From an uncultured Siphonobacter sp. (lineage in GTDB: Bacteria > Bacteroidota > Bacteroidia > Cytophagales > Spirosomataceae): 64,000 bases of DNA. Below the pieces are notes generated by a model that was not told the DNA's origin, did no database searches, and saw only the letters and a list, made by a program, of their open reading frames with translations. Position numbers and translations under genes: made by a program. Of this stretch, positions 1 to 41,316 are shown piece by piece; position 1 is the stretch's first letter; each line of letters begins with the position of its first letter. The stretch lies in the NCBI GenBank assembly GCA_913775095.1, contig CAJYIW010000024.1, positions 434,001 through 498,000 on the forward strand, read 5' to 3'.

Positions 1-916
1 TAACTTCGGGTCCTGAGGCGGCCTTCCGCATTTTAAATGCGGGTCCGGACGATAATGAAGCGAACTCTACGATGGAATTGGTATCAAACTCCAGTTCGGG
101 GAAGTCGGCGTTCCAGGTTTCTTCGCGAAGGTTCTGACCATTCGCTCCGATGCGTTGCCAGGTTTCATAATCGCGGGTATGCAGTAATTCCAGGCTTCGG
201 CTCAGGTACTCGGAAACCTCCGGATACATATCCCGGAAACCGGGCATGAAGCGTTTAAGTCCGTGCCAGAATACCTGGTATTCAATGTCCCGCTCATGGA
301 GAGGAACGGGGTTATTGCGATCAAACACCCGGTGATTGCCAAAGTGAATGTCAACGAAATCCAGGTTATTGGGGGCATTGAAAAAGAGTGTCGCCGGAGA
401 AGTTCCTCCGATTACGCCCGTTCCCTGCCGGCTTTGGTAATGCAGAATAAAGAGTTTCCGCAGACCCGTGAAGTTATAACTGGCGGCGTCTTCCCGCAGG
501 TACAGATCCAGGGCCGATCCCAGCCGCTGATGGTTCCGGGAACCACTTTGTAAGGTACGCAGGGCCTGCTCCCGATCCCAGGTAATGATGCGAAGCGGAC
601 CTTTGGGAGACTTGAATTTATCGAAATTGAAAAAGATTTCACCTACGTCAAAACAGGCCGAAACCAGTCGTTCGTCGTTGAGCGAGCCTTTCAGATTACT
701 GTATAAAATCAAATTTCGAAAAGCCGATTTTACTAAATCGAAACGGGCAAAGGGGCTGGGAATCGACGTGGGGTCTTTCTCCGTGTCACCTTTGGCTTTA
801 TCGTCGATGGCTTCGATTAAATCGGTAGTATAAGGTTGCGAAACGAACCAGTGACCATCGACAGAAGCCGAACGGTCGTGCAGGTTAAGTTCGCGTTTAA
901 GGGACTGATCAGCCAT
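1..916 (-). CDS. Unrecognised protein of the FtsZ-like/vWA cluster, partial
   Basis: An open frame of about 305 codons starts at an ATG at 916 and runs off the left edge, so the C-terminus is missing. It begins MADQSLKRELNLHDRSASV and is a soluble, mixed-charge protein with no signal peptide or membrane segment in the visible part. I do not recognise a domain. It lies 90 bp downstream of the FtsZ-like gene on the same strand, so it probably belongs to that operon. A perfect TAATTTTG box (complement of 925-932) sits only 9 nt before the ATG, so a second, nearly leaderless transcript is possible. The coding call rests on the long stop-free frame and typical codon use. Function unknown. Confidence 0.8.
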   Translation of the reverse strand, partial: MADQSLKRELNLHDRSASVDGHWFVSQPYTTDLIEAIDDKAKGDTEKDPTSIPSPFARFDLVKSAFRNLILYSNLKGSLNDERLVSACFDVGEIFFNFDKFKSPKGPLRIITWDREQALRTLQSGSRNHQRLGSALDLYLREDAASYNFTGLRKLFILHYQSRQGTGVIGGTSPATLFFNAPNNLDFVDIHFGNHRVFDRNNPVPLHERDIEYQVFWHGLKRFMPGFRDMYPEVSEYLSRSLELLHTRDYETWQRIGANGQNLREETWNADFPELEFDTNSIVEFASLSSGPAFKMRKAASGPEV

Positions 917-1006
917 GGATTCTTCAAAATTAGGGTATTAACCTCATTTCATTACCTGATGAACAGGATAGGCAGCACTCGGGAGTTACCCCGATTGAAC
1001 GGACTA

Positions 1007-2545
1007 TTACTGAGCCGCCAGCTGCGGGTATTCTTTCTGGATGAATTCCTCGGTACAGGTATTCATCAGATTCAGAAACTTATCCTCTGGGGTTACGTAG
1101 GTCTTGCCTTTGGACTCGGCGTTCAGGTATTCATCGAATTCGCCTTTGTTCATTTCGATTTCTACGTCAACTGTCTTGCCGAAAAAGTTCTTTTTGGTTC
1201 GCTCAAATCCCGGAATGAATTTCCCCAGATCTTCCGTAGCCAGATTGAACGGCCGAAACGTTCGCTTGTTGAAGATGTTTCGGTCGTGGTCATTCATTTC
1301 GGCTAACCAGCTCCGGTAGTTCTCATTAAAATCATGCAGATTCCGGTAGAATTTCGTCTGTTTGAAATCAGAGCCAATCCTGGGCGTTTCCTTGCTCGTC
1401 CAGGGAGCACTGTTGCTTCCCAGTATCCCATCGCGTTCGACACGGGTTTTCAGGTATTGACTCAGAATAGTCAGCTTGGTCAAGGGCTGGGCAAACACCT
1501 GACGGGTCCGGTCTACGAAGTCGGAGAAATTGAGTCGGGAATTGCTCGTACCCAAACCAAATTCTGCGTAACGGGGGTTCCGGGCAATGACCTGCCCATC
1601 CCGAACCGTGCATTCCATTTCACTGGTGTGCTCACAGAAATCAACAATCGACAGAGCCGATACCAGTTCCACGTAATGAGCATCGTTCTGCTGACCGCCC
1701 GCTCCCGGATCGTACTCATACGGACTGCGGTAACTCTCCGCGATGTAATACAAAGCGTTGAGTTTGGGATATTCCTTATTGGATAAACTGTTCTGGTAAT
1801 ACCCTAATGCGGCTTTCGTTTTGGAGATAAACGTTGCGTTATCAATGGCCTTATCCTGAGCTCCAGCCGAATAGACATCAAAATAGGGCTGCACGGAAAC
1901 TGCTCCAATGCGGGCTTCGCGGACGTCCTTGGCATCAGAGCCCCCGTAACCTCTGATGTTTTTCAGGATCAAAGGGAAACCTGAAGCTCCCGTTCCACCA
2001 AAGATGGAACTGATGATAAACACTTTGTCTTCTTTTTTATAGGAACTCACAAAGGCCTTGAATTCTTCCGATTCCCGAAACTGATTCAAAACGACGGAGC
2101 CGATGTTGGGGTTACCCACAAAGCCAATGTCCATTTTGGTATCCAGCTGTTCTTTCGAAAACAGTAAACCGGCCAGAGCTTCGTTGGCTTCGTCCAGCGA
2201 ATCGTGACCAATGTAGTTACCATACTTTTCGTCACTGACGCCCTTGAGTTCGTACTGAAACGAATCCGAAATAGCGGCACTGGGTAACTGACGTTTCAGC
2301 GTCTGTATATCCGTTCCGAACAGGCCCGAAGCCGGAGGATTTTGAAGCGAAGAACGAACATTCTGATAGTAATTCAGGATTTCTTTCGTCCGTTTCAGGT
2401 CTTTATTTTCAGCGTGTGGATCCATAAGAATAGGAACCACCTGCGTGGTATTACGGAGTTTTACGCCCGAAGCCAGCAGATAAGTCAGCGACTTTACCAC
2501 CCGGGCTCCGGTACCTCCAATCGCAAATAAAAAGAGTCGAGACAT
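1007..2545 (-). CDS. FtsZ/tubulin-like GTPase-superfamily protein
   Basis: A 512-aa protein with two nucleotide-binding signatures of the tubulin/FtsZ superfamily. There is a glycine-rich turn at the N-terminus (FAIGGTGARVVKSL, residues 7-20) after a single beta strand, and a tubulin-type G-box GGTGASG at residues 183-189 following FIISSIF. This fits the divergent tubulin-like family (Pfam Tubulin_2) rather than cell-division FtsZ, which is shorter and better conserved. That family has been predicted by genome context to act in membrane remodelling together with a vWA protein. Here a vWA-like lipoprotein and a three-helix membrane protein are encoded just upstream on the same strand. Polymerisation and GTP use are inferred. 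The 205-bp gap upstream contains degenerate TTTTGAG repeats. Confidence 0.8.
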   Translation of the reverse strand: MSRLFLFAIGGTGARVVKSLTYLLASGVKLRNTTQVVPILMDPHAENKDLKRTKEILNYYQNVRSSLQNPPASGLFGTDIQTLKRQLPSAAISDSFQYELKGVSDEKYGNYIGHDSLDEANEALAGLLFSKEQLDTKMDIGFVGNPNIGSVVLNQFRESEEFKAFVSSYKKEDKVFIISSIFGGTGASGFPLILKNIRGYGGSDAKDVREARIGAVSVQPYFDVYSAGAQDKAIDNATFISKTKAALGYYQNSLSNKEYPKLNALYYIAESYRSPYEYDPGAGGQQNDAHYVELVSALSIVDFCEHTSEMECTVRDGQVIARNPRYAEFGLGTSNSRLNFSDFVDRTRQVFAQPLTKLTILSQYLKTRVERDGILGSNSAPWTSKETPRIGSDFKQTKFYRNLHDFNENYRSWLAEMNDHDRNIFNKRTFRPFNLATEDLGKFIPGFERTKKNFFGKTVDVEIEMNKGEFDEYLNAESKGKTYVTPEDKFLNLMNTCTEEFIQKEYPQLAAQ

Positions 2546-2555
2546 AGGAGTTCTT

Positions 2556-2757
2556 TTGTCGTTTTGAGTTTGGAGTTTTGAGTTTTGAGTTAATTTACCT
2601 TAATACCCTTCGAACCAAACTCATTACTCGTTCCTGTTGTAGTTATTTTAGGTTTGTGTCAAGTTATCCCACAGGATAGTAGTTTTGGATTTGTCATTTG
2701 CTGAGTTAGAAAAACCCTAAACTCAAAACCCCAAACGCAAAACACTAAACTCTAAAA
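2556..2757. repeat. Degenerate CTCAAAA/TTTTGAG heptamer tracts
   Basis: The gap between the FtsZ-like gene and the small membrane protein gene carries TTTTGAG units near 2560-2590 and, at 2709-2757, the complementary series (CTAAACTCAAAACCCC, CACTAAACTCTAAA). The two tracts are inverted relative to each other and could pair. They match the perfect heptamer array at 41204-41294 and the decayed tract at 32728-32815, so this looks like a genome-wide intergenic repeat family. Confidence 0.6.
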
Positions 2758-3177
2758 TGGAATTTTCCGGTTATTGGTGCTTAGGTTTTTGATGATCAGG
2801 GATAATACCAAAAACAGCACAGCTGCCAGCAGTAACATTTCAAATCCGAAACCGAAGAAGACACTTCCTCCCTGATCGAAGTAACGTCCCAGTTCAGGAT
2901 GTCCTTTGCGACGGGGAATTTCCTGAGCCGCTTTTTGGGAACAGGTGACGATGGCGACAATCATGCTCAGCACGGAACTAGTGGCCAGCACCAAAAGCCA
3001 GGTGGAGGCTTTGGCGTATCGCACCTTATTCATGGCGAAGTAATACACTGCCACGCCTACGGCTACGAAAACCAGAAGCGTCAGGGTCAGGGAGGTCAAT
3101 AAGTGTTCATCGTATAAATCGTCCAGAAGTGAGCGTTCTGTGAAGAGGGCGTAGAAGTCGTAAAGCAGATTTTCCAT
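2752..3177 (-). CDS. Small three-helix membrane protein
   Basis: A 141-aa protein with three hydrophobic segments, around residues 27-50, 58-78 and 107-130, the last followed by a short basic tail (KNLSTNNRKIPF). Between helices 2 and 3 is a hydrophilic loop (SQKAAQEIPRRKGHPELGRYFDQ). No family is recognised. Its ATG overlaps the stop of the upstream vWA-like lipoprotein gene by one base (TAATG), so the two are translationally coupled and probably made in fixed proportion. The context suggests a membrane partner for the lipoprotein and the FtsZ-like protein; this is inference. Confidence 0.75.
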   Translation of the reverse strand: MENLLYDFYALFTERSLLDDLYDEHLLTSLTLTLLVFVAVGVAVYYFAMNKVRYAKASTWLLVLATSSVLSMIVAIVTCSQKAAQEIPRRKGHPELGRYFDQGGSVFFGFGFEMLLLAAVLFLVLSLIIKNLSTNNRKIPF

Positions 3178-4538
3178 TAGTTCAAATAAAGGCTGATCGT
3201 GAAATAGGTAAGGGCTTGCTGAGGATTATAGGCTTTCTCTATACCCCGGGTAAAATTCAGGATTCCAAAGGTTTTTTCCGAGAAATCTTCTGACTTTGGG
3301 TTGCTGTCATCCGCCGTAGTGGTTTGAGCAATCCAGGCCGGTGGGAATTTCCGTTTCAGTCGGATCGAAATTTCCCGTTTTCCCCCGCCCTGAGGTTCAG
3401 CAGTAGTTAGTAAAAATTTATGCGTGTAGCCTTCCGGTCCTCTTTCAGCCACGATTTTCTGAATTTTAAAGCCCTCATCCGACTCAATTTCGTACGATTT
3501 GGGATCAGTTTTATAAGAATCAGGTAAATAAAACCCACCCAGATCTACACCTACCGCCAGCGTCAGGCCTCGTGTTTTCCGGTCGGCCTCAATGTTTTCG
3601 AGGGTATGAATCGCTTCTTTGTTCGTTTTCCGCTCCTGGCGACTCTGCTCAAACTGACCCGCCTGATCCGCATCTTTTAATAATACGGTATAGAACGGCA
3701 CATTGTCGCTTGCACTGGTAAAGTAATGAAACGCTTCAAAACCGGGCAGGTCCGAAAAGCGGGAAAGAGACTCAAATTTTTCATCGGAGAGCAAGGCCTT
3801 CATCGTGGCGTTCGTTGCCATCAGAGCAATGTAATAAGGACGCGAACCATTATAGGGTTTGCCTCCCCCATTGTGCGGATAATACGTACCCTTGAAAGCC
3901 CCCTGCAATTTTATCAGTAATAAGGATTTGTCTTTGGTTTGAGACGCAAACGTGGTTTGCATCAGCGTCTCTACATCAGCCAGAATTTTAGCTGAAGACT
4001 GAGCAGACGTAGACTCCGTGGAATAAATCAAATCCGAAAACAGGACGCCGACTTCTCCCTCTTTTAAACCCGACAGGATGGTTTTAAAAATCAGACTGAA
4101 ATCCGTGTGACGTGAATCGCCTTTGTCTTTAGCCAGTGTGAATATGTTGGGCTGTTCGACCAACTGCTGGAAGCTAACGCCCATGGGATAGACGTTGTCA
4201 TTGACTACGAATAATTCCGTAGACCCGGGTTTCTGGGTTTCGAACGCAGTGAGCAGATTCTGTAAAGCTTCGTCAAATTCACCCGTACTGCCTGCCGCAT
4301 CGTAGGGAAACATACTGCCGCTGGCTTCCAGATATAATTTGGCTTTCAGGTTTTTAGGAGCGGCCTTAACCGACTGAGGTTCAGATACGGACTCTGCCGT
4401 TTCTGTGCTGGGTTCCGTAGCTTCCCCCTGATTACCCCGCTTGCGGTCACCTCCGCCACACTGGGTTAATAAAAGTGCCGAAGCGGTTAAGGCTGAAAAA
4501 TAGATGGTTCGTAACCAGAGAATACGCATAGATTTCAA
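3177..4538 (-). CDS. vWA-like domain lipoprotein
   Basis: A 453-aa protein with a hydrophobic N-terminal segment ending LLLTQC; Cys27 is the likely lipidated residue, though Gln at -1 is unusual. A low-complexity Thr/Glu/Ser linker (35-60) leads into a von Willebrand A-like domain. The MIDAS loop reads LYLEASGSM (E71, S73, S75), with Glu where canonical domains have Asp. The remaining MIDAS parts are plausible at T145/D146 (HTDFSLIF) and S168/D169 (VLFSDLI). The C-terminal half is beta-rich and unassigned. First gene of the cluster; the next gene overlaps its stop by one base. A start at residue 4 (MRILW) is equally possible. Probably periplasm-facing and membrane anchored. Confidence 0.78.
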   Translation of the reverse strand: MKSMRILWLRTIYFSALTASALLLTQCGGGDRKRGNQGEATEPSTETAESVSEPQSVKAAPKNLKAKLYLEASGSMFPYDAAGSTGEFDEALQNLLTAFETQKPGSTELFVVNDNVYPMGVSFQQLVEQPNIFTLAKDKGDSRHTDFSLIFKTILSGLKEGEVGVLFSDLIYSTESTSAQSSAKILADVETLMQTTFASQTKDKSLLLIKLQGAFKGTYYPHNGGGKPYNGSRPYYIALMATNATMKALLSDEKFESLSRFSDLPGFEAFHYFTSASDNVPFYTVLLKDADQAGQFEQSRQERKTNKEAIHTLENIEADRKTRGLTLAVGVDLGGFYLPDSYKTDPKSYEIESDEGFKIQKIVAERGPEGYTHKFLLTTAEPQGGGKREISIRLKRKFPPAWIAQTTTADDSNPKSEDFSEKTFGILNFTRGIEKAYNPQQALTYFTISLYLN

Positions 4539-40630: not shown

Positions 40631-41203
40631 TGACTTTATAAAAAACCGGGATTAGCAGGCAGGATTTTCATTTTCCATCCGCCTAGATTGGTGTCCTCTC
40701 CAACTTCTTCCTTTAAAACTGGCTGGTCAGACATCAGATCAGGCGGGAGTTTCACTGCCTCCCAGCTATCTTTATTTCGAGCCAAGACGCCATAAATGGA
40801 CGTCTCTACGTGAAAAGGAAAGAAGGAATTGACGGCACAGCACCCATCCCCGGGGTTGGTGTGCTCACTAACCCCTTTACAACTGGCTGGTCAGATAAGG
40901 CACAGAAAATGTGAACCCGGTTATTACCCCGGGTTATCACCCGGAGCTACGCAGATTGAACCCCGCTGGGGTTCTTACGCTCAGTTCCAAACAGCTTCCC
41001 CATCCCCGGAGTTGGTGTCCTCACCAACCCCTTGCTTTACAGCTGGCTGGTGAGACACCAGCCAGGGCGGGAAGGTAACCCGGTTATCACCCCGGATTAG
41101 CCTCCGGGGCTATCCAGCCGGGGACTACCCAGATTGAACCCCGCTGGGTTATAACTTTCATTTCCAAACAGCTTCCTTACCTTTATTGGTTTTGACTTTC
41201 AAA
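40631..41203. repeat. Repeat-rich intergenic block with REP-like palindromes
   Basis: This gap contains a tandemly repeated unit of about 160-175 bp (copies near 40842-40998 and 41000-41177, plus a partial copy from 40671). Each unit carries a palindrome related to GTTGGTGTCCTCACCAAC (40687-40704, 40852-40875, 41008-41031), then an ACTGGCTGGT-like segment, and ends with CAGATTGAACCCCGCTGGG and CCAAACAGCTTCC. At 41043-41065 CTGGCTGGTG/CACCAGCCAG forms a second perfect hairpin. A GAGACG-type palindrome lies at 40785-40805. No protein-coding frame is supported. Confidence 0.75.
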
Positions 41204-41316
41204 CTCAAAACTCAAAACTCAAAACTCAAAACTCAAAACTCAAAACTCAAAACTCAAAACTCAAAACTCAAAACTCAAAACTCAAAACTCAAAACAGCAG
41301 CGGCGGCCGCTCAAAA
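41204..41316. repeat. Perfect CTCAAAA heptamer array (13 units)
   Basis: Thirteen uninterrupted copies of CTCAAAA fill 41204-41294. A GC-rich interruption follows (CAGCAGCGGCGGCCG), then one more unit at 41310-41316, directly next to the aroE stop codon. The array is a short-sequence repeat with no spacers. Its length probably varies by slippage. Confidence 0.95.

Follow-up and report, generated by a model that had tools for sequence, protein, structure and literature searches.

FtsA and FtsZ are the main known case in bacteria of an actin-family and a tubulin-family protein acting together. The 64,000-nucleotide window analyzed here (G000:C24:434001-498000, from an uncultured Siphonobacter sp.) opens with a gene cluster that extends beyond its left edge and that encodes as neighbors, judging from sequence and predicted structure, a tubulin-family protein of 512 amino acids (TUB) and an actin-family protein (ACT). 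The identity of ACT is the main new result of this study. The tubulin-like and actin-like genes, together with ion-driven motor genes in some species, lie in a conserved cluster, suggesting an undescribed cell-envelope machine. As in the FtsZ–FtsA pair, the two genes are adjacent, and the C-terminal half of ACT aligns to FtsA. The pair differs from FtsZ–FtsA, however, in that the canonical FtsZ and FtsA genes are side by side elsewhere in this genome, apart from TUB–ACT, in that ACT has 1184 amino acids with a large extra N-terminal part, and in that the cluster is present in a minority of genomes.

Neighborhoods with vWA, GTPase and OmpA genes were described for the FtsZ-like family FtsZl1 by Makarova and Koonin in 2010 (PMC2875224). 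In the main text of that paper, the majority of FtsZl1 proteins are long, with a coiled coil and a helical C-terminal domain, a GTPase or kinase gene is a frequent but not universal neighbor, and an OmpA-family gene lies nearby in several genomes, as one does here. The present cluster shares with FtsZl1/Tubulin_2 (PF13809) the OmpA-family gene, several membrane proteins and an FtsZ-like protein in which both the T1 and the T4 loop occur; its lipoprotein is a probable counterpart of the vWA partner. No GTPase or kinase was found in it, and that main text mentions neither ACT nor the MotA/MotB pair (0 occurrences of MreB, Hsp70, MotB and TolQ). TUB is related to FtsZl1 but is not a classical member, because it has 512 amino acids and no long coiled coil in its model.

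Compared with the Zorya ZorAB and the MotAB/TolQR 5:2 motors, as presented in the available text of PMC11890865, the MotB-like protein of the cluster is nearest to ZorB, the Asp and the pore Thr are kept, and the MotA-like protein has three hydrophobic segments and a long predicted helical tail. In contrast to Zorya, the partners of the motor here are TUB, ACT and a vWA-like lipoprotein, and effectors were not matched. Tubulins, vWA proteins and, as separate themes, HSP70 were placed in predicted GTPase-centered conflict systems by Kaur et al. in 2020 (PMC7159879). In the available text of that study, the GAP1-N2 systems likewise bring tubulin-domain and vWA genes together in a predicted membrane-near assembly; they are GTPase-centered, with tubulin and HSP70 as separate themes from other phyla, whereas the present cluster has no GTPase match and holds an actin-type protein and a motor. 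Motor-driven vWA proteins transmitting force across the envelope are proposed in PMC12204202, and in those systems, as here, the gene of a TolQ-type motor protein lies close to one for a vWA or vWA-like protein. The available text of that paper has a transmembrane (TM) helix of the vWA protein bind the motor, whereas the vWA-like protein here is apparently anchored by a lipid; this cluster also has a MotB-type partner and, in addition, TUB and ACT, and the word tubulin has 0 occurrences there. In the accessible parts of two further papers, PMC9871819 roots a tree with Tubulin_2 proteins, and PMC12505986 covers MotAB diversity, with 0 occurrences of tubulin. A literature search that left most subscription journals outside, and is no proof of absence, found no paper describing a single cluster with genes of the tubulin-like, actin-like and MotAB-like kinds.

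The actin-like and tubulin-like proteins

The preliminary description of the window had listed an unrecognised protein leaving it beside TUB; the gene is present and runs left from position 916, and its product is now recognizable as actin-like. The C-terminal ~570 residues of ACT carry what we take to be the phosphate-1 (DFGTTNT), phosphate-2 (DIGGGT.D) and adenosine (GTGSK) motifs, as well as a Glu in ES.AP, and the key nucleotide-site residues of these motifs are invariant in 40/40 members. In profile–profile comparisons, the C-terminal half reached FtsA at 96.2% probability (E 2.5e-9, 423 columns), while four other comparisons with ACT halves stayed at ≤0.3% and one more gave 0.6%. The ACT of a relative (locus L052) was modeled with a predicted local distance difference test score (pLDDT) of 84.4 and a predicted template-modeling score (pTM) of 0.74, and Foldseek placed MreB first for this model (E 2.1e-8), followed by ParM and actins, with 382 matches at E≤0.001. 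In addition, the Pfam FtsA model was matched by 24/40 members at E≤0.1 (best 6.6e-5). These sequence and model comparisons indicate that ACT almost certainly has the actin fold. An SrfB identity was rejected, with a match in only 3/40 members (best E 0.032). The N-terminal ~600 residues gave no match in the Pfam scan or the profile comparisons run.

TUB matched Pfam Tubulin_2 with E 3.6e-6 (26.9 bits, 0.1 bit short of the cut-off of 27) and Tubulin with E 3.3e-4, and among the aligned relatives, the window protein included, Tubulin was matched by 49/49 and Tubulin_2 by 48/49 at E≤0.1. The GGTGASG motif claimed earlier for the 512-residue protein was found as its T4 loop, and T1 (GGTG), Asp42 and T4 (GGTG..G) are invariant in all 49 aligned sequences. 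A structure predicted from these 49 sequences (pLDDT 86.3, pTM 0.91) appears, on our reading, to follow the strand and helix order of tubulin over its first ~310 residues. FtsZ, CetZ, TubZ and tubulins held the top Foldseek ranks, mostly with probabilities of 0.9-1.0, an outcome that does not refute the tubulin fold assumed in the preliminary description, although the matches are weak.

Several results weigh against this assignment. The best Foldseek E was 1.1e-3, leaving none at E≤0.001, and the template-modeling score normalized to the target was ≤0.42 among the 50 matches listed. The hhalign comparison of TUB with FtsZ was not significant (0.8%; N-terminal half, 1.1%), that with the classical Tubulin_2 protein of the same genome gave 0.8-0.9%, and the best E of the TUB profile against PDB sequences was 0.69. 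Moreover, the TUB alignment offered no invariant residues that could be equated with the T7 hydrolysis loop. Such weak scores, with aldolase and nucleoside hydrolases also among the matches listed and the Tubulin_2 score just below its cut-off, would suit a protein that is no tubulin relative and in which GGTGASG arose by chance as a glycine loop of a different Rossmann-like fold; we regard this as very improbable in view of the Pfam matches throughout the family, the two invariant glycine loops, the fall of T4 in register even within the weak FtsZ alignment, and the fact that, among the matches listed, a Foldseek probability ≥0.9 was reached only by FtsZ, TubZ, CetZ, tubulin or a tubulin-containing entry. 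We therefore consider TUB a remote member of the tubulin superfamily which, from sequence and model, very probably has the tubulin fold. Its nearest named relative, from Siphonobacter sp. BAB-5405, is 92% identical (among the best 80 of at least 575 relatives).

The two proteins might also work without filaments, in a nucleoside triphosphate-dependent switch or chaperone-like complex in which they bind nucleotide and, as regulatory subunits, control the gating of the membrane proteins. The missing T7 assignment would agree with this, as would the C-terminal part of TUB, which is unlike the known tubulin C-domain by the tests made (hhalign 0.7%), the N-terminal ~600 residues of ACT, which are unlike MreB or FtsA (0.1%), and the Hsp70 protein DnaK among the structural matches of the L052 ACT model. 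DnaK, however, first appears at rank 44, the closest structural matches of ACT are the polymer-forming MreB, ParM and actin, and its partner comes from the other polymer-forming superfamily, so that we consider the switch improbable.

The same genome carries further tubulin-family genes, namely the canonical FtsZ (contig C2), a 334-amino-acid FtsZ-family protein (C27) and a classical Tubulin_2 protein (C1). The last (L137:9273-12314, equal to G000:C1:165273-168314; 1013 amino acids, E 3.7e-56) lies in a gene run that also encodes proteins of the caspase-domain and papain-family types. The 334-residue Tubulin/FtsZ-domain protein (L138:6296-7300, on G000:C27; 75.9 bits) is neither the canonical FtsZ nor TUB, and its gene adjoins one that we named RecQ-like.

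Motor and membrane partners

To the left of position 1, an OmpA-family gene and a GTPase had been expected. The former is present, in the form of a MotB-type stator protein; the latter was not found. No GTPase or kinase family occurred among the matches of seven cluster proteins and the N-terminal part of ACT, and the only Walker A pattern in the cluster, GSGHFGKS, lies within the OmpA-like domain and is not credible as Walker A, so a GTPase in the cluster was rejected.

The profile of the MotB-like family matched the ZorB chains of two cryo-electron microscopy structures in the PDB (8vvn, E 2.2e-11; 8qyd, E 1.2e-6), the former being type I ZorAB according to the available text of PMC11890865. 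The cluster's own MotB-like protein matched PADLOC ZorB models (5e-10) and Pfam OmpA (E 0.003), and its ion-carrying Asp15 is kept in 16/16 sequences. In the MotA-like family, the pore Thr is kept at Thr197 in 16/18 and at Thr243 in 17/18, MotA_ExbB was matched by 10/18 relatives (best 1.7e-6), and some relatives match ZorA2 (best 8.2e-6); the hydrophobic segments lie at 1, 184 and 224. On the other side of the balance, the cluster's own MotA-like protein matched Pfam weakly (E 0.058), and the family profile found unrelated helical proteins as its best PDB matches, TolQ (E 0.36) and ZorA (E 0.55) coming behind them. None of the effectors ZorC, D, E, F and G was matched among the eight proteins scanned, and membership in Zorya was rejected because the ZorB-like match is accompanied by no effector match.

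The first gene of the cluster encodes a lipoprotein previously described as vWA-like. The classical metal ion-dependent adhesion site (MIDAS) motif begins with Asp, and Glu stands there in this lipoprotein family. The MIDAS-like set ExSxS, Thr or Ser, and Asp is kept in 38/38 members, whereas Pfam gave no vWA match for the window protein or among the 38. Membership in the FtsZl1 systems would call for a vWA partner with an intact DxSxS. In hhalign against a profile of VWA_2 proteins from relatives, the lipoprotein scored 12.3% (E 0.0024) and the MIDAS strands lined up, compared with E 0.15-0.57 for controls; a PDB search with the lipoprotein profile returned nothing. From these sequence comparisons, the protein is probably a vWA protein. 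The lipid anchor proposed earlier is likewise plausible, given LLTQC near the start of the window protein and a match to a simple lipobox-like expression within the first 70 residues in 50/73 relatives.

The small three-TM protein sits between the vWA and TUB genes in relatives too; a link to the type VI secretion system was rejected for it, TssN (E 0.22) being one among eleven weak membrane-protein matches. The protein encoded after ACT (CC) starts with hydrophobic residues and contains a single TM segment as well as a charged region of coiled-coil-like character, and assignments to its family may take in unrelated coiled coils.

Conservation and a candidate envelope machine

A scan of species genomes with TUB found at least 575 relatives, of which the best 80 were kept, a sample therefore biased to near relatives. 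By title these 80 loci belong to Bacteroidota, including the cultivable genera Spirosoma, Siphonobacter and Pedobacter, except for one metagenome-assembled genome of Leptospiraceae, which has all seven genes and may be contamination. Enough flank (≥2.6 kb ahead of TUB and ≥6.5 kb behind it) was available at 64/80 loci, and 62 of the 64 keep the order vWA–TM–TUB–ACT–CC on the same strand, although frames are split in two of these; only L081 (vWA–TM–TUB only) and L102 (CC not called) deviate. In the 20 neighborhoods fetched, the own one included, the five genes were present in 16, with E-values from profiles that contain the scored sequences. The genes are thus conserved together in relatives, as the proposal in the preliminary description required, and the arrangement is not due to chance, because it is seen again in other genera and families.

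Joint inheritance extends to whole genomes. Among 99 genomes (own included), TUB was found in 37 (E≤0.001, single protein) and ACT in 33 (E≤1e-12, profile), all 33 within the 37 with TUB; at its cut-off, ACT was found in none of the 62 genomes without TUB. The four genomes with TUB and no ACT at this cut-off (G061, G083, G084 and G098) hold the most divergent TUBs, and in G083 an ACT-like neighbor was recruited by our own profile. In one genome (G064) the genes are scattered but kept, with TUB at 3.36 Mb, ACT at 3.60 Mb and MotB at 1.71 Mb, which favors shared function over shared location. Among 247 genomes drawn from the phylum, TUB was found in 6, and an ACT match better than E 1e-8 in the same 6 only. 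We consider it very likely that the cluster is one functional unit; its parts, their folds to the degree given above and their joint inheritance follow from sequence, predicted structure and comparison.

The motor is the variable part. After CC, a MotA-like gene follows in 18/64 loci, with a MotB-like gene as well in 15, and the motor was not seen in the other 46. Mapped onto a TUB tree with 102 rows, made by a quick method, the motor label requires 9 changes (≥7 going by the starred branches), with the motor-less rows including short contigs unable to show a motor. The MotB profile was absent in 9/13 TUB-bearing genomes picked, in which MotA was not searched for. The motor as an invariable part was rejected. 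At the motor-less loci inspected, the place after CC is taken by a lipoprotein resembling aspartyl proteases, by a TM protein or by zinc-ribbon proteins.

The cluster may be best explained as one nucleotide-controlled multi-protein machine across the envelope, FtsZ/FtsA-like inside and Mot/Zor-like across, a reading to which we give an even chance; a mechanical role in the envelope is equally finely balanced. By analogy with FtsZ and FtsA, TUB (binding guanosine triphosphate) and ACT (binding adenosine triphosphate) would form a nucleotide-controlled assembly on the cytoplasmic side of the inner membrane. The three-TM and TM/coiled-coil proteins would anchor this assembly and relay its state to the far side of the membrane. 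In lineages that have it, the motor would turn ion flow into a pull or twist against peptidoglycan via the OmpA-like domain, and the exported vWA lipoprotein would provide a putative contact in the periplasm or at the outer membrane, binding in a metal-dependent manner. The outcome could be local envelope remodeling, tethering or tension control, and would be distinct from division, because separate FtsZ and FtsA genes are retained in the genome. Polymerisation, contacts, force direction and the task of the machine are what we infer in this scheme. A stronger version is offered tentatively, at somewhat less than an even chance: paired actin-family and tubulin-family polymers would act on the inner membrane, outside division, and some lineages would link them to an ion-driven motor that grips peptidoglycan and to an exported vWA protein serving in adhesion or sensing, the whole being a dedicated trans-envelope cytoskeletal force generator.

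Some of the above speaks against such a machine, including the remoteness of TUB from known tubulins and its missing T7 assignment. With the motor not seen in 46/64 loci, it cannot be the common core, and the presence of the system in a minority of genomes (6/247) means that it serves no general envelope need. Moreover, the ACT profile in fact matched 167/247 genomes, of which 161 were set aside as short FtsA-like matches, with best E-values of 2.6e-6 to 9.4e-4; those listed, which are the stronger ones, span 25-89 profile positions around phosphate-2, mostly in FtsA-sized frames. The machine is, finally, a proposal drawn from genes, predicted structures and comparison.

The main competing explanation is a defense or conflict system, in which phage damage to the envelope is detected either by the vWA lipoprotein or by a motor of Zorya-like type, and TUB and ACT serve as a nucleoside triphosphate-dependent threshold switch or effector. 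The nearness of the MotB-like protein to ZorB and the ZorA2 matches of some MotA-like relatives agree with it, as do the patchy spread of the cluster across genomes, the TerD genes beside a divergent version in genome G278 (TerD E 1.4e-70 for the one tested), and the available text of Kaur et al. (PMC7159879), which assigns both tubulins and vWA proteins to conflict systems that it predicts. However, no Zorya effector was matched in the proteins scanned and the cluster has no recognizable effector domain; the motor is absent from most loci; and the position within the genus is kept on the ispE side in 3/3 relatives (L033, L049 and L052) and on the ferritin–mraY side in 2/3 (L033 and L052; gene names assigned by us from sequence), unlike a mobile defense island. 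We thus consider defense unlikely and retain the envelope machine. If the latter is true, the cluster represents a second conserved actin/tubulin pair, outside division and sometimes with an ion-driven motor, and gives a concrete object to a question open since 2010, the role of divergent FtsZ-like families. It also makes a direct coupling of cytoskeletal polymers to ion-driven envelope motors in bacteria testable.

Layout of the cluster and further observations

The four co-directional open reading frames (ORFs) reported at the window start are present, all on the minus strand, the one-base overlap of the lipoprotein and three-TM genes is seen directly in the sequence, and the three helices of the latter's product correspond to hydrophobic 19-mers at 24, 57 and 103. 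The order of transcription is vWA-like lipoprotein, three-TM protein, TUB, ACT, CC, MotA-like, MotB-like and a 39-residue lipoprotein-like ORF, with, after the one-base overlap, gaps of 206, 90, 92, 97 and 31 bases and a four-base overlap at the successive junctions (Table 1).

Table 1 Coordinates of the cluster genes and of genes after CC in motor-less relatives. L032 is G000:C24:418001-438000; a window position is the L032 position minus 16000.
Feature	Position	Strand	Remark
vWA-like lipoprotein, 453 amino acids, first cluster gene	3177-4538	minus	opens at TTG; probable ATG three codons in, at 4529
Three-TM protein, 141 amino acids	2752-3177	minus	three hydrophobic segments; one-base overlap with lipoprotein gene
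TUB, tubulin-superfamily protein, 512 amino acids	1007-2545	minus	T4 loop GGTGASG, residues 183-189
ACT, 1184 amino acids, predicted actin-fold C-terminal half	window 916 to L032:13362 (window -2638)	minus	305 codons inside window
CC, TM/coiled-coil protein, 449 amino acids	L032:11920-13269	minus	
MotA/TolQ/ZorA-like protein, 531 amino acids	L032:10227-11822	minus	
MotB/OmpA/ZorB-like protein, 214 amino acids	L032:9551-10195	minus	
Lipoprotein-like ORF, 39 amino acids	L032:9435-9554	minus	overlaps end of MotB-like gene
Downstream genes in motor-less relatives	L035:16205-18357, L057:16480-18588, L110:15779-18352, L093:15846-16682		

The 39-residue ORF carries CAGCSKTGNHRH, and similar ORFs occur in L033, L049 and L052. 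Its CxGCS start is like that of the protease-like lipoprotein in motor-less relatives, where the downstream products are an aspartyl-protease-like lipoprotein (E 1.8e-17, L035) and a WG-repeat TM or weak zinc-ribbon TM protein. The divergent cluster of G278 (L142:3171-14106) runs from a lipoprotein-like gene through a small TM protein, TUB and an ACT-like gene to the TerD-type genes. Broken frames in the ACT, TUB or lipoprotein gene were seen at G058:C10:69095-72532, where there is a single inner TAG, and in L067, L070 and L090; they may reflect sequencing error or decay.

An Rfam scan of the window gave no structural RNA family at the gathering score, and upstream promoter and terminator patterns were not above shuffle level. 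The 206-base gap before TUB (2546-2751) folds better than shuffles (z -3.1). A structural RNA was rejected there, and the stretch reads as a generic intergenic palindrome, because its halves are heptamer-type repeats (GTTTTGA / AAACTCA) that recur in the window. Similar palindromes sit between other cluster genes too, and 13.6 perfect AAACTCA copies lie at 41201-41295.

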